Source of the DNA: Halosimplex halophilum
GTDB lineage: Archaea; Halobacteriota; Halobacteria; Halobacteriales; Haloarculaceae
Direction of reading: 5' to 3'
DNA length: 64,000 bases
NCBI RefSeq assembly: GCF_004698125.1
Contig: NZ_ML214297.1
Span: 1,772,891-1,836,890, forward strand
Shown: in pieces, positions 10,813 to 29,062 of the stretch
Position numbering within the stretch: position 1 is the first letter of the stretch
How the letters are laid out: every line of letters begins with the position of its first letter
Program-made: the position numbers and the translations under genes
The notes under the pieces: model-generated
Told to the model about the DNA's origin: nothing
Database searches by the model: none
What the model saw: only the letters and a program-made list of their open reading frames with translations

Positions 10813-11145
10813 ATGGCCGCGACACACGACCGTCCCGTCTCGCTGTCGACCCGGGCCGAACTCGACGACCTCGTCGCGAGTCACGACCGGGTGCTCGTCG
10901 AGTTCCACACGGAGGGCTGCGGGAAGTGCGCGGCGATGGAGCCGGTCCTGAGCGGGGTCGCCCGCTCGACCGACGCCGTCGTCGCGACGATGAACCCGCG
11001 GGACGACCCCCAGCTGATCGACGAGTACGACGTGCGGAGCGTCCCGAAACTCCTCCTGTTCGTCGACGGCGACCTCGCCGGGACCCGCGAGGACGGGGTC
11101 CTCTCCGTCGGGGAAGTACAGGAGTTCGTCGCGGAAAGCGGCTGA
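10813..11145 (+). CDS. Thioredoxin-fold protein
   Basis: Encodes 110 residues with a single thioredoxin fold. The active site is EGC36-G-K-C39 in VLVEFHTEGCGKC, replacing the classical WCGPC, and the cis-proline loop reads VRSVPKLLLF. It probably acts as a cytoplasmic thiol-disulfide oxidoreductase; no signal peptide is seen. The CGKC active site differs from that of canonical thioredoxin, so redox potential and partner may differ. The gene is divergent from mutS across a long gap and convergent with the sensor kinase gene downstream. Confidence 0.85.
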   Translation: MAATHDRPVSLSTRAELDDLVASHDRVLVEFHTEGCGKCAAMEPVLSGVARSTDAVVATMNPRDDPQLIDEYDVRSVPKLLLFVDGDLAGTREDGVLSVGEVQEFVAESG

Positions 11146-11196: not shown

Positions 11197-13227
11197 TCAG
11201 TCGAGCGGGTCGAGTTCGGTCACTGTCACGTTCTCGAAGACGGCTTCGCTGGTCTCGTCGGCGCTGTGGCTGCAGACGGCGAGGCCGACGACCACCGGGT
11301 CGGCGAGATCGATCCGTCGCTGGTCGATGGGGTGCCAGTCCTCGCCGTCGGTGGACCACGACAGCGTCACCGTGCCGTCGACGGCGTCGAGGCGGTACCA
11401 CGGGTAGGCGTCGTAGGGCTCCTCGAGCTGGTCGCTCCCCGCGGCGGCGCCGGCCTCGTGGCGCCACATCGTCTCGGTGCCGTGGTCGCCCGTCGCGCCG
11501 ACGAACGCGAACGCGGCGTCCTCGGCGAGGGTGTCCCTGACCATCAGCCCGGCCTTGCTGTACTCGTGGACGGCCTCCAGTTCGTCCAGCCGCCCCTCGA
11601 TCCGGACGGGCCCGTCGAGTTCGACGTAGGCGAAGTGGAACTCGTCGATGTCGTGCCAGATGTCCCGGCCGTCGCCGACGACCCGCCAGGACCCGTCCGC
11701 CGCGCCGGGGGTCGCCGAGCCGGCGACGGACACGTCGCCCACGTCGACGTTCCCGGTGAGCGCCACCGGCTCGCCGGTCGGCTCGGCGGGTTCGGGGACC
11801 ACGACCGGGCACTCGGTGAACTCGAAGCGCGCGCCCGGGGCGTCGCCGGTCTCGCTCTCGCGGATGTCGACCTCCCAGCCCTGCTGGTCGACGGTCTCGG
11901 CGACGATCGCCAGCCCCGTCCCGGTGCCGTCCTCGGTGGTCGTGTAGCCGGCTTCGAGGACCTGCTCGCGCTCGGCCTCGGGGATGCCGGGGCCGTCGTC
12001 CTCGACGTAGAAGCCGCGGTCGGTCGTCCCCACGCGGACGGTCACGTCCGGACCGGCGTGGTCGAGGGCGTTCTTCAGGAGGTTCTCGACCAGCGGCCGG
12101 ACGGCCTCGGTCTCGGCGATGACCTCGGTGCCCTCGGGAACGGCCACCTCCAGCGTCGCGTCGTCGGTGCCGTGGACGCTCCAGACCTGTTCGACCAGCG
12201 GCGCGAGCTCCGTCGAGGAGACGCCCACGTCGAGCACGTCGAGCACCTCCTCGGAGAGGTCGACCGTCCGGTCGCCCTTCGAGAGGGCGCTGAGGTCCGC
12301 GAGGATCTCCTCGATGCGCTCGTTGGCCCGCTCGATCCGGTCGAACGCCTCCTCGTGGCCCTCGCGGGCCCGTTCGAGGGCGCCGACGGAGACCTGCAGC
12401 GGCGTCCGCAGGTCGTGGGAGACGTAGCTGGCGAACTCGTCGAACCGGCGCTGCTGTTCCTCCAGGCGTCGCTTGAGCTGCATCCGCTCGGTGACGTCGA
12501 GCGCGTAGCCGACCACCCCGACAACGCGGCCGTCCCCGTCGCGCCAGGGGACCTTCGTCACCTCCGACCAGTGGTCGCCGCCCTGCGTCTCGAAGTGCTC
12601 GATCTGGCGACGGATCGGCTCGCCGGTCTCGGCGACGCGGAGGTCGTCCTCGTAGGCCTCCCGGTCGGCGTCCGAACCGTGGTCGAACACCTCCGGGTCG
12701 GTCTTCCCGACGAACTCCTCGGGGTCCGGCGTGTACGGCACGTCGGCCATCCGGACGTACCGGCCCGCCTCGTCCTTGGCGAACATCGTCATCTGTCCCT
12801 CTTCGAGCAGCGTCCGGAGGATGCCGCTGTCGGCGGCGGCCTGGCGCCGCTCCCGGAAGGTCGCCACCGCGTCGTCGACGACCGCGCCGAGCGTCTCGAC
12901 GGAGGCCGACCGCGGGAGGTACCGGCAGTCGGCCCGCCCCGCGACGGCCGCGGCGACCGCCTCGTCGTCGGCGTAGGCGACGACCGGCAGGTGGTCGCTG
13001 ACCGCTCTGGCGGCCTCGACGGCGTCGTCGAACCCGGCCTCGTCGACGCCCACGGCGACGATACAGCCGACGTCGTTCCGTGCGGAGAGCCGCTCGGTCA
13101 GGTCGTCGCGGTCCGCGACGGCGACGGCCTCGATCGCGTCCGGGAGCGCCCCGCGGACGCGGTCCCGGTCGTCGGTCGATCCGCCGACGACGAGGGCGAC
13201 AGTCGGGTCCGCCAGGAGGTGACTCAT
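11197..13227 (-). CDS. Soluble PAS histidine kinase with C-terminal lectin/glucanase-like domain
   Basis: Encodes 676 residues from ATG 13227; GTG 13242 is an alternative. Order: a receiver-like N-terminal domain (about 8-115; ALVVGG, then DVGCIVAVGVDEAG, with a degenerate phospho-acceptor region), a PAS domain (about 130-245) ending VVGYALDVTERM, a HisKA helix with H271 in SYVSHDLRTPLQ, a HATPase with ENLLKNALDHA, EDDGPGIP and GTGTGLAIV, and then an extra domain at about 512-672. That last part (EYSKAGLMVRDTLAEDAAF, ETMWRHEAGA, WYRLDAVDGTVTLSWSTDG) looks like the concanavalin-like DUF1349 type usually found in secreted carbohydrate-binding proteins. No membrane segment is visible, so the sensor appears cytoplasmic. 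No cognate response regulator is adjacent. Confidence 0.85.
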   Translation of the reverse strand: MSHLLADPTVALVVGGSTDDRDRVRGALPDAIEAVAVADRDDLTERLSARNDVGCIVAVGVDEAGFDDAVEAARAVSDHLPVVAYADDEAVAAAVAGRADCRYLPRSASVETLGAVVDDAVATFRERRQAAADSGILRTLLEEGQMTMFAKDEAGRYVRMADVPYTPDPEEFVGKTDPEVFDHGSDADREAYEDDLRVAETGEPIRRQIEHFETQGGDHWSEVTKVPWRDGDGRVVGVVGYALDVTERMQLKRRLEEQQRRFDEFASYVSHDLRTPLQVSVGALERAREGHEEAFDRIERANERIEEILADLSALSKGDRTVDLSEEVLDVLDVGVSSTELAPLVEQVWSVHGTDDATLEVAVPEGTEVIAETEAVRPLVENLLKNALDHAGPDVTVRVGTTDRGFYVEDDGPGIPEAEREQVLEAGYTTTEDGTGTGLAIVAETVDQQGWEVDIRESETGDAPGARFEFTECPVVVPEPAEPTGEPVALTGNVDVGDVSVAGSATPGAADGSWRVVGDGRDIWHDIDEFHFAYVELDGPVRIEGRLDELEAVHEYSKAGLMVRDTLAEDAAFAFVGATGDHGTETMWRHEAGAAAGSDQLEEPYDAYPWYRLDAVDGTVTLSWSTDGEDWHPIDQRRIDLADPVVVGLAVCSHSADETSEAVFENVTVTELDPLD

Positions 13228-13310
13228 CGGGATTACCGACACCGTATGCGATGCAGGTAAATAAGGCCCGGGGGGGCCGGTGAACGGTCCGGTCGCTGGT
13301 GTGTACCGGC

Positions 13311-14081
13311 CTACGTGTCGACGGCACGACGGATCGCCGAGGGGTCGGTTCCGCCGACGAGCAGCGACGTGTACCAGCCGGCCGCCCGCGCAGCGAAGTT
13401 ACAGACGTGCAGCGACGCGAGCGTCGCCACCAGCCCGAACGCCGAGACGGCCAGCGCCTCCGGCAGCGTGGTGACGTACCACGTCGTCAGCCGGAACGGG
13501 ACCGTGAGCCCGACCTCCCAGGTCCGGAGCGCGACCTCGACGGACGGCTGGACGTTCATCTCCCCGGAGACCGGCCGGACGCCGACGTTGACCGACCGGT
13601 AGTACAGCGGCACGAGCAACAGCGACAGCGACACCGTCCCCAGCAAGACCAGCAGCGTGAACGCCGCGGTCCCGACGAGGACCTTGCTCAGGAGGAAGAC
13701 GACCCCCCGCCACGTCGAGAGGCTCGTGAGCGCGTGTTTCAGGTGGGCGACCGGGTCGGTGAGCGGGGGCACCTCGGCCTCGCCGGCGGGGGCGTCGACG
13801 GCGAGCAGCCGGTCGGCCGCGTACCGTTCGAGCGCGGTCAGTTCCCGGACCAGCAGTATCGTCCCGGCGAGCACGGGGAGGCCGACGAGTATCACCGCCA
13901 GCCCGACGCCGAGCCCGAAGCCCAGCGGGAGCAGTATCGAGTACGCCATTCCCAGCGGGAACAGCGCCGAGAGGTACAGCAGGTTCGCGTACGTCCGGAG
14001 CCGGAAGGGCACGCCGACGAACCGCCGGAGGAGGGCGCCCGGCCGGCCGGGTATCCGGAGCGCGGGGACCAGTCGGCTCAT
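13311..14081 (-). CDS. Membrane protein with putative sensor domain (PF13796-like)
   Basis: Encodes 256 residues with about four to five hydrophobic segments. The N-terminal signature TYANLLYLSALFPLGMAYS, followed by a glycine-rich membrane helix LGFGLGVGLAVILVGLPVL, matches the 'putative sensor' membrane domain found in bacterial and haloarchaeal signalling proteins. No kinase or output domain follows, so this is a stand-alone membrane module. It lies 83 nt upstream of, and in the same direction as, the PAS histidine kinase gene. A joint sensory role is possible but not shown. Confidence 0.65.
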   Translation of the reverse strand: MSRLVPALRIPGRPGALLRRFVGVPFRLRTYANLLYLSALFPLGMAYSILLPLGFGLGVGLAVILVGLPVLAGTILLVRELTALERYAADRLLAVDAPAGEAEVPPLTDPVAHLKHALTSLSTWRGVVFLLSKVLVGTAAFTLLVLLGTVSLSLLLVPLYYRSVNVGVRPVSGEMNVQPSVEVALRTWEVGLTVPFRLTTWYVTTLPEALAVSAFGLVATLASLHVCNFAARAAGWYTSLLVGGTDPSAIRRAVDT

Positions 14082-14190
14082 TGTCGACTGCTCGCCCGCC
14101 GGCGTAGTAAAACTGTTCGTACAGGCGCGAGGACGGCCGCTACCGGCGGCTCCGGCCCCGGGTCGACGAACGACGAGCGGCGAGTCCCGG

Positions 14191-14538
14191 TCACGCGCCG
14201 GTCAGCGCGTAGAGGATCGACCCGAGGCCGAGGATCTCCAGGAGCGCCCAGGCGAGGACGCCCGCGGCGTCGCTGGCGAGCAACACGGAGACCAGCAGCG
14301 TCGTGACGACGAACGGGGCCGCGGTCACGAGGAAGATACCGACGCCGAGAAACAGCATCGGGCGGCTGTCGTTGCGGCGGTACCCGCGGTAGGCCTGGTA
14401 GGCGACGAACAGCCCGACTGCGGCGGTCAGCGCCCCGGTGAGCGTCGCCGGCGTAACCGCCGGGCCGCCCTGGAGCGGTGCAGTCCCGGCGGGGAAGGGC
14501 ACCGCGGGTGACGCGGCGCCCGCGAGCGGGTCGCTCAC
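14191..14538 (-). CDS. Small membrane protein, DUF7521-like
   Basis: Encodes 115 residues from GTG 14538. It has three predicted membrane helices: TLTGALTAAVGLFVAYQAY, then MLFLGVGIFLVTAAPFVV, then a C-terminal LLEILGLGSILYAL. A short basic YRGYRRNDSRP loop follows helix 1. It resembles the preceding paralogue at 14603-14965 (shared loop YRGxR-D--MLFLxVGI and C-terminal ILGLGxILYA). I recall this as a haloarchaeal family often beside ArsR-type regulators. Function unknown. Confidence 0.65.
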   Translation of the reverse strand: MSDPLAGAASPAVPFPAGTAPLQGGPAVTPATLTGALTAAVGLFVAYQAYRGYRRNDSRPMLFLGVGIFLVTAAPFVVTTLLVSVLLASDAAGVLAWALLEILGLGSILYALTGA

Positions 14539-14602
14539 GGCGCCACCTCCCGGCGGGGACCGGCGTCCGGGTCGCGTTCGTGGGGGTGTGGGGTGCGTGC
14601 GG

Positions 14603-14965
14603 TCATGGTCGTCCGTAGACGGCGTAGAGGATACAGCCGAGGCCGAGCAGTTCGCTGACGGTCGTCGACAGCAGGCGGACGGACTCCGGCGCGTCGGTGA
14701 GCGTCGGGAGGGCGATGCGGAGGGCGATGGGGCCGCCGGTCAGGAGGACGATCCCGACCGCCAGGAACAGCATCGCCCGGTCGCGGGTGCCCCGGTAGCC
14801 CTTCAGCGCCTCGTAGGCGATGAGCAGCGACAGGCCGGCCGCGACGGCCAGCCCCAGCAGGGCCAGCGCCGCGAGCAGGGCGGACCCGCCGGTCGCGGAG
14901 ACCTGCAGGGCGGGCCCCGGGGCGGGAGCGTGGCCGATCGCGGGAGCGGATGTCGCGGGTATCAT
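14603..14965 (-). CDS. Small membrane protein, DUF7521-like, coupled to a regulator
   Basis: Encodes 120 residues from ATG 14965, which overlaps the stop of the winged-helix regulator by 4 nt (ATGA), showing translational coupling. Three hydrophobic segments surround a basic loop ALKGYRGTRDRAMLFLAVG, and the C-terminus reads LLGLGCILYAVYG. It is a clear paralogue of the next gene. The operon context (regulator first, then two membrane proteins) suggests the regulator controls these proteins or that they form a small signalling unit. Confidence 0.7.
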   Translation of the reverse strand: MIPATSAPAIGHAPAPGPALQVSATGGSALLAALALLGLAVAAGLSLLIAYEALKGYRGTRDRAMLFLAVGIVLLTGGPIALRIALPTLTDAPESVRLLSTTVSELLGLGCILYAVYGRP

Positions 14966-15321
14966 GGTTCTGTGAGTCCCTCGAACAGCCGCGTGAACCG
15001 GTCGGCGGCGTCCACCTCGCGGCGAGACACGTCGATGGTGCACTCGCCGTCCTCGATCTCGACGGTGACGCGCTCGACGCGCGTCTGATACGTCTTGTAG
15101 TGGTGGCCGTCCGGGTCCAGCTGCTGCTGTTCGACGATGAGGTCGTACTCGCGGAGCTGTTCGATGCGCCGGTAGATCGTCGGCTCGGAGGCGTCGCAGC
15201 GCTCGGCCAGCGCCGAGGCCGACAGCGCCTCGCGGCTCGACTCGACCAGGATCGCGCGGGCGTACTCGTCGTCGAGCAACGAGATCACGTCCGCCTCCTC
15301 GGGATCCTGCCCGGCTGCCAT
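14962..15321 (-). CDS. ArsR-like winged-helix transcriptional regulator
   Basis: Encodes 119 residues from ATG 15321. The HTH covers EALSASALAERCDASEPTIY with the recognition helix SEPTIYRRIEQLREYDLI; a short beta wing and a C-terminal domain (TYQTRVERVTVEIEDGECT) follow. A TTTTATG element 26-32 nt upstream (15347-15353) supports the start over longer alternatives. It heads a three-gene unit with two DUF7521-like membrane proteins and is probably autoregulatory. No metal-binding cysteines are visible, so a thiol-metal sensor role is unlikely. Confidence 0.8.
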   Translation of the reverse strand: MAAGQDPEEADVISLLDDEYARAILVESSREALSASALAERCDASEPTIYRRIEQLREYDLIVEQQQLDPDGHHYKTYQTRVERVTVEIEDGECTIDVSRREVDAADRFTRLFEGLTEP

Positions 15322-15397
15322 CACCCGACCGTTTTCCCGGCGGTCACATAAAAGGGGCCACACGCTTTCCGACCCGGAAACTGTGACCCGGGCCGGG

Positions 15398-27612: not shown

Positions 27613-27928
27613 GGATACATCCGTCGGCCCCGGTTCGGGTGCCGTGAACGAAACGAGGACTGGACCCGACTAAAGCGTTTTCACTCCGATACCGCTGAAT
27701 AATCGTGAAGGTTGGGTACGGCCCGTCTCGCGCCTGAACTCGGCCGGGGGTGACAACGGCATGCACAGCGCGTCTCGCTCGCGTGCCTCGCATCTGTTCT
27801 CGAAGACAGAACGTAGTTCTCTATATCCTCGATCGCCGGACCTGAAAGCTCCCGATCAGTTTTTCGGACGGTCTCAGCGACGATTCTCGGGCGGCCAGGC
27901 TTTTGTGGCAGTCCACCAACGGCCGGGT
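27613..27928. other. Divergent intergenic region between porA and the histidine kinase gene
   Basis: No gene was seen. A minus-strand CTTTAGT near 27668-27675 may be the porA TATA, implying a leader of about 30 nt. On the plus strand a TATA-like CTATAT lies at 27821-27826, and GCTTTTG just upstream of 27929 has the right spacing for a leaderless kinase mRNA. Confidence 0.5.
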
Positions 27929-29062
27929 ATGATCCGACGGACTCTCGCGGTCGGGAGCGTGGCCCTGACGGGGCTGGCGCTGGTCGCCGGGGCGGCCTCC
28001 AGCGCCGCCGGTGCGGGCGGCGACGGCATCGGCCTCGCCCTCGTGGCGCTGGGGGCGGTGCTCGGCACCGCCATCGTCGCCGGGGCGGCGTACCTCTACC
28101 GCAGCGACGTGGCCACGGTACACACGGCGCGTATCGCCGGCTGGAACCTCCTCGGGGTCGCGCTGCTGGGCGTCATCCTGGCGCTCGCCCGGGCGGCGCC
28201 CGGAGCCTCGATTCCGGCCTACGTCGTCGTCGACGTGCTCGGCGTGAGCTCCGTCGCGCACCTGCTCATCGGGTACAACGACGTGCGCCGCATCCGCGCC
28301 GAGGAGCTCGCCCGCCAGCGCCGCACCCTCGCCGTCGTCAACCGGCTCACCCGCCACAACCTCCGCAACCGCACCCAGGTCCTCACCGGCCACGCGTCGC
28401 TGCTCGCCGAGGAGCTGGACGACCCCGACCACCGGACCGCCGCCGAGACCGTCCGCGACACCGCCCGCGACCTCGCGGAGATCGACGGGGAGCTCGAGAC
28501 CATCCAGACCGCGCTCAACCGCGACTCGCCGGACCGGTCGGTCGATCTCTCCGCGCTCGTCGAGGAGGTGCTCGACCCCTACCGCGAGGCCCACCCCGAC
28601 GGCACGTTCGAGTCCGACGTGCCCGACGGGTTCACCGTCTACGGCGACGAACAACTGCGGACCGCGGTCGAACACCTCGTCGAGAACGCCGTGGAACACG
28701 GTTCCGCGAGCCCTGATTCGCGGGCTCCCGAGGACGCCGACGGAGCGAGCTCCGGCGAGCCTTCGGTCGCTGGCGCTCCCGAGGAGGCCGTCGAGCACGG
28801 CGACTCCGGGTCGCCGTACGTCCGGGTCGCCGCCGAGACCGACGGCGACAGCGCCGAGATCCGGGTCTCCGACCGCGGTCCGGGCGTCCCGGCCGACGAG
28901 GTCGCCGTCCTCGACGGCGACCGGGACATCTCACAGCTCGAACACGGCTCCGGGCTGGGCCTGTGGGTCGCGAAGACGGTCGCGGAGCGGTACGGCGGCG
29001 ACCTCGCCGTCGAGAACGGCGACCGCGGCGCGACGGTCTCGCTCGGTGTCCGGGCGGCGTGA
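27929..29062 (+). CDS. Membrane-bound histidine kinase
   Basis: Encodes 377 residues. Four hydrophobic helices lie at about 1-110 (SVALTGLALVAGAASSAAGA, GLALVALGAVLGTAIVAGAA, AGWNLLGVALLGVILALA, AYVVVDVLGVSSVAHLLIG). The haloarchaeal-type H-box VNRLTRHNLRNRTQ has H143, followed by HATPase motifs HLVENAVEHG, VSDRGPGVP and HGSGLGLWVAKTV. There is no PAS domain and no adjacent response regulator. Between the N and G1 boxes is an inserted low-complexity segment of about 33 residues flanked by a repeat of AVEHG (28688-28801). Confidence 0.87.
   Translation: MIRRTLAVGSVALTGLALVAGAASSAAGAGGDGIGLALVALGAVLGTAIVAGAAYLYRSDVATVHTARIAGWNLLGVALLGVILALARAAPGASIPAYVVVDVLGVSSVAHLLIGYNDVRRIRAEELARQRRTLAVVNRLTRHNLRNRTQVLTGHASLLAEELDDPDHRTAAETVRDTARDLAEIDGELETIQTALNRDSPDRSVDLSALVEEVLDPYREAHPDGTFESDVPDGFTVYGDEQLRTAVEHLVENAVEHGSASPDSRAPEDADGASSGEPSVAGAPEEAVEHGDSGSPYVRVAAETDGDSAEIRVSDRGPGVPADEVAVLDGDRDISQLEHGSGLGLWVAKTVAERYGGDLAVENGDRGATVSLGVRAA
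28688..28801 (+). repeat. In-frame insertion flanked by a short direct repeat inside the kinase ATPase domain
   Basis: GCC-GT-GA-CACGG occurs at 28688 and again at 28787, exactly 99 bp (33 codons) apart, both encoding AVEHG. The inserted part contains inverted repeats (gagccc...gggctc; ggagcg...cgctcc). It keeps the reading frame and encodes SASPDSRAPEDADGASSGEP and similar residues. Confidence 0.65.

Follow-up and report, generated by a model that had tools for sequence, protein, structure and literature searches.

Histidine kinases normally carry their sensor domains N-terminal to the catalytic core. In the 64,000-nucleotide stretch of the Halosimplex halophilum genome analyzed here (the window), we found a histidine kinase gene whose product continues behind the ATPase domain into a domain similar to DUF1349 and concanavalin-type folds, which raises the question of whether this is a true protein architecture, and of what such a domain may do at that place in a cytosolic kinase. 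The account that we favor, and that we regard as reasonably probable, is that the gene belongs to a haloarchaeal subfamily of soluble PAS-HisKA-HATPase kinases to which a DUF1349 sandwich was fused once, in a gene that was later duplicated, and in which the sandwich acts as a cytosolic input.

Architecture of the kinase

As shown in Table 1, the gene is one uninterrupted open reading frame of 676 amino acids counted from the ATG, without internal stops. The matches to HisKA (43.3 bits) and HATPase_c (58.8 bits) are both above the Pfam curated cut-offs (26.9 and 26.4, respectively), that to PAS_4 also lies well above its own, and no transmembrane segment was detected in the kinase, the peak 19-residue hydropathy being 1.04. 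The first-pass annotation had described a soluble protein with receiver-like, PAS, HisKA and HATPase domains followed by a DUF1349-like domain; Pfam and the structure model confirmed this order and the hydropathy profile the solubility, in such a way that the architecture stands as described, whereas its interpretation was supported in part.

Table 1. Positions in the window of the kinase gene, its domains and its neighbors.
Feature	Position	Strand	Residues	Evidence or remark
Thioredoxin-like protein, convergent with the kinase	10813..11145	+		Synteny kept in Halosimplex
Soluble histidine kinase with C-terminal DUF1349-like domain	11197..13227	-		Stop codon 11197-11199
DUF1349-like domain, predicted concanavalin-type beta-sandwich, C-terminal	11200..11766	-	488-676	
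Pfam DUF1349 match	11215-11646	-	528-671	E 1.8e-5, 24.9 bits
HATPase_c	11815..12105	-	375-471	Pfam, E 8.7e-16
HisKA dimerization/phosphoacceptor domain	12271..12438	-	264-319	Pfam, E 3.7e-11; His271 within SHDLRTPL
PAS_4	12484..12786	-	148-248	Pfam, E 1.7e-15
Receiver-like (beta-alpha)5 domain, degenerate	12838..13212	-	6-130	Structure model
Possible alternative in-frame GTG start of the kinase	13242	-		
TATA-like CTTATTTA, 31-38 nt 5' of the kinase ATG	13258..13265	-		Six-species comparison
Membrane protein with "Putative sensor" PF13796	13311..14081	-		Synteny kept in Halosimplex only

The phosphoacceptor H271, the N-box (N382/N386), the G1 box (D410-x-G412-x-G414) and the G2 box (G436-x-G438) are all intact in the window copy, which suggests that it should be a catalytically active kinase. 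Activity is not preserved by every copy, as an essential kinase residue is missing in 10 of the 53 proteins of the family that were aligned.

In the structure model the N-terminal residues (around 6-130) take up a receiver-like fold of the (beta-alpha)5 type, with a pLDDT of around 70-88 over most of its length (block means of 74-88 for residues 11-120), this being the only part in which the full-length model was confident. A PF00072-type phosphorylation site is absent from the window copy, where V59-G60 occupies the expected site of the phospho-acceptor Asp and R106 that of the conserved Lys. Of the 53 family members aligned, 15 have Asp at column 59, 20 have it at column 60, and a single one has the Lys at its aligned position, supporting that the domain is a pseudo-receiver here, degenerate to a varying degree in the other members.

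Identity of the C-terminal domain

The C-terminal domain, a predicted beta-sandwich, is homologous to DUF1349 (PF07081), judging from profile comparisons. The window copy scores 24.9-28.8 bits against PF07081, below the gathering cut-off of 32.4, and for this reason we call it a divergent DUF1349 homolog and not a formal member; two orthologous or paralogous fused kinases exceed the cut-off, with 36.4 and 35.9 bits. When the kinase-borne domains were aligned by hhalign with the non-kinase haloarchaeal DUF1349 domains, a probability of 100 was obtained (E 1.1e-39, 38% identity), and all the 23 domains of a mixed set matched PF07081 with E values of 0.1 or lower. The initial assignment to DUF1349 was right, and the concanavalin-like fold is the probable one. 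A single-sequence search of the PDB with this domain gave nothing useful and profiles were required; the top matches of the profile search were 3o12 (yeast YJL217W/Ree1) and 3mep (ECA2234), and the same two entries were ranked first by Foldseek (E around 4e-4, TM around 0.4) with a weak domain model built on three close sequences (pLDDT 45.6).

The notion that DUF1349 domains are usually secreted held only in part. Haloarchaeal relatives with Tat-type signals are common, but the stand-alone proteins of around 190 amino acids cannot fit a signal peptide, since in a canonical one 177 of the 179 profile positions lie inside a 191-residue frame, leaving no room for it. The genome of the window encodes two further DUF1349 proteins (L001 and L002, on contig C4), with Tat-like signal sequences at their start and the DUF1349 domain near the N-terminus of frames of around 750 amino acids, in which other Pfam domains were not found.

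Recurrence and origin of the fusion

The full-length gene is present in six Halosimplex species, with conserved synteny and promoter. A full-length profile further detected the fusion in no fewer than 25 of the 392 Halobacteriales genomes that were sampled, from four families and often in several copies, so that the same architecture, which the first-pass annotation had suggested looking for in other Halobacteria, does recur there. As two places were scored per genome, the copy numbers are lower bounds. Fused kinases scored 712-981 bits and aligned through to the end of the profile, whereas kinase-only matches reached 469 bits at most and stopped before position 555 or so of 710, without overlap between both groups. 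At the level of the family 34 of 146 genomes have the C-terminal domain, and at that of the order 64 of 392, in some cases in non-kinase proteins; among places taken with their flanks, kinase and domain occur together in 52 further open reading frames, mostly without predicted membrane segments. No carriers of the fusion were detected outside Halobacteriales in a sample of 197 genomes of the phylum.

This recurrence excludes chance and mis-assembly. That a frameshift or an assembly error had joined two adjacent genes, as considered in the first-pass annotation, is refuted by the continuous frame kept in the six Halosimplex species and in at least 25 independent genomes, and by the well-supported single-origin tree described below, in such a way that we give this explanation practically no weight.

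In a tree of the PAS-kinase region, one branch (100/92) set 51 fused kinases apart from the 16 closest unfused ones of nine genomes, which end 1-48 amino acids past the HATPase domain. The tree of the C-terminal domain likewise separated the 51 kinase-borne domains from 16 other DUF1349 domains by one branch (100/99). Both trees are unrooted and their outgroup sample is limited; as each keeps the 51 fused proteins together on a single side, they agree best with one fusion and subsequent duplication, and the simplest reading would be a single fusion, then duplication and patchy loss or transfer.

Comparisons between Halosimplex species gave dN/dS values (Nei-Gojobori) of 0.16-0.29 in the kinase core, 0.26-0.44 in the added domain and 0.28-0.54 in the receiver-like one. 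All the 53 family proteins have G560 and W631, and W588, R589, W610, R612, S625 and D627-G628 are common to kinase-borne and secreted domains. The kinase clade has in addition a signature of its own (T579, E585, T621 and D635-Q636-R637, 82-96%), and these residues suggest a ligand or a kinase interface particular to this clade. The Pfam score of the window copy, below the curated cut-off, could be taken as a sign that the domain is a functionless, decaying remnant. We consider this very improbable, since purifying selection acts on the added domain and the core of the kinase is intact, and it is further opposed by the two invariant residues, by the retention of the domain across four families and many paralogs, and by the orthologs that exceed the cut-off. 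The earlier suggestion that the domain may have lost ligand binding appears unlikely as well, considering the purifying selection and the many residues retained in common with secreted relatives.

Gene neighborhood

The CTTATT within the TATA-like box is invariant in six Halosimplex species, in a spacer that has otherwise diverged, which suggests that the kinase is probably transcribed from its own promoter. Upstream of it (13311-15363, minus strand) lie the PF13796 "Sensor" gene, the genes of two small membrane proteins that are paralogs of each other and that of a winged-helix (HTH) regulator, conserved in Halosimplex in the order HTH, small membrane proteins, "Sensor" and kinase; other genera lack this arrangement. 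The regulator has around ten paralogs in the genome. The PF13796 protein was considered as an obligate partner of the kinase and dropped, because this arrangement is restricted to Halosimplex and a conserved TATA-like box precedes the kinase itself; a link to the cassette of the HTH and the small membrane proteins was also dropped, given the around ten HTH paralogs per genome.

Among 30 loci of the family, no recurrent neighbor gene was found that could indicate a pathway or a cognate regulator, and none of the 106 neighbor proteins pointed to a recurrent glycan, sugar-transport or response-regulator family. For this search the neighbor genes were chosen by a heuristic composition-based pick and then assigned by Pfam; an all-against-all comparison was dominated by antisense frames.

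Paralogs and inserts in the ATPase domain

One well-conserved group of Halosimplex orthologs (L090, L091, L107 and L108) has lost the N-box Asn and the glycines of G1 and G2, keeping His271, the PAS and the C-terminal domain; its members are likely pseudokinases, and the group was not seen in the genome of the window. Tandem fused kinases were found in L098 (6040-10576), L103 (3838-7915), L099 (3774-8302), L067 (6844-11102) and L094 (5864-11102), most of them with overlapping frames, and the pairs of L098, L099 and L103 combine an intact copy with one that has lost its catalytic residues.

A separate observation concerns another kinase-like frame of the window (27761-29062), in which an in-frame insert (28675-28790, plus strand) lies within the ATPase N-box. 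Such inserts, of around 10-75 residues, occur in several haloarchaeal kinases, also in L089, L101, L104, L105 and L106, and are often flanked by N-box motif copies (NAVEHG-STS...DAVEHG), in some cases in tandem. When a DNA pattern for the start of the insert was searched, the genome of the window had nine matches and the reversed control none. It looks like a short element that duplicates its target within kinase genes.

Proposed function of the C-terminal domain

The added domain is probably a cytosolic input module that binds a ligand or a partner. In the mechanism that we propose, the soluble kinase would act as a dimer, autophosphorylate at His271 and pass the phosphate to an unlinked response regulator. 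Two cytosolic inputs would converge on it, one being the PAS domain and the other the beta-sandwich at the C-terminus, the latter binding a soluble ligand or partner, which may be a glycan or sugar compound or a protein. Held on a linker of around 16 residues, the sandwich could alter the access of the ATPase domain to His271; from its place near the ATPase it might gate this domain or bring a partner to it. The degenerate receiver-like domain would probably serve as a dimerization or docking element.

What the sandwich binds is the point on which the alternatives differ. In the sugar sensor proposed in the first-pass annotation, a carbohydrate in the concanavalin-type groove would switch the kinase. 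The fold family includes lectins, plasmid-borne haloarchaeal relatives lie within proteins annotated as pectate lyases, and W524, H531, R564, W588 and R589 are largely common to secreted and kinase-borne forms; fucosylated glycans are the ligands of YesU, a concanavalin-like protein reported to be cytosolic (PMC6120924), although it is comparable at the fold level only. Considering also that no carbohydrate gene family recurs beside the kinases of the 30 loci and that the kinase clade departs from the secreted clade at many otherwise conserved positions, a sugar sensor seems to us rather unlikely.

A module for protein interaction or oligomerization, similar to SPRY/B30.2 domains, that recruits partners or pairs the kinase with pseudokinase paralogs, has a somewhat better chance, while still falling short of an even one. 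SPRY domains also appeared in the fold search, but the structure model is weak and such matches are generic to the fold. The overlapping tandems of intact and degenerate copies in some genomes and the retention of the domain by the pseudokinase orthologs agree with it, and the fact that catalytically dead paralogs keep the domain hints at a role beyond tuning the catalysis of their own chain. A bolder version, in which the lectin-type sandwich would be an intracellular signal receiver behind the ATPase throughout the subfamily, working in some lineages through pairs of active and dead paralogs, is put forward tentatively, as we rate it no higher than the sugar sensor. If true, it would be, to our knowledge, a novel position and a novel type of input for histidine kinases. 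A cytosolic family that has retained and multiplied a lectin-type fold after the core offers a testable case of C-terminal kinase input and a way to approach the function of DUF1349 domains, and otherwise orphan haloarchaeal kinases gain a recognizable subfamily.

Comparison with known systems

Kinases without a membrane segment are frequent in archaea, 62% of the total according to a census (Galperin et al. 2018, PMC5847659), where up to 40% of the REC domains that these kinases carry are considered as possibly escaping phosphorylation and the REC-PAS-HisKA type is already described within the REC-HisK class. The kinase of the window shares with these haloarchaeal soluble proteins the receiver-like, PAS, HisKA and HATPase domains and the lack of a membrane segment, and a kinase core like that of the fused proteins is also present in their nearest unfused relatives from the same genomes; by contrast, kinases of the REC-HisK class stop at the HATPase, whereas that of the window continues into the DUF1349-like domain. 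The passages of the census that were searched make no mention of a DUF1349-like domain on a kinase, and a literature search retrieved no paper reporting a histidine kinase with a domain of the DUF1349 or concanavalin-like type.

Sequence profiles and the fold search alike relate the domain, a predicted beta-sandwich, to the DUF1349 proteins and to their solved relatives 3o12 and 3mep, but these are stand-alone proteins and the domain of the window is fused to a kinase. Other haloarchaeal DUF1349 domains are secreted through Tat-type signals or lie in large multidomain proteins, and the kinase-borne ones form a separate, diverged branch. YesU of Bacillus subtilis resembles it in the concanavalin-like fold, predicted for the domain of the window, and in a location described as cytosolic (PMC6120924); glycan binding was measured for YesU alone. 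Finally, the hybrid histidine kinases of bacteria and eukaryotes also have an extra domain behind the HATPase, but theirs is a phosphorylatable receiver, whereas that of the window kinase is a predicted beta-sandwich.
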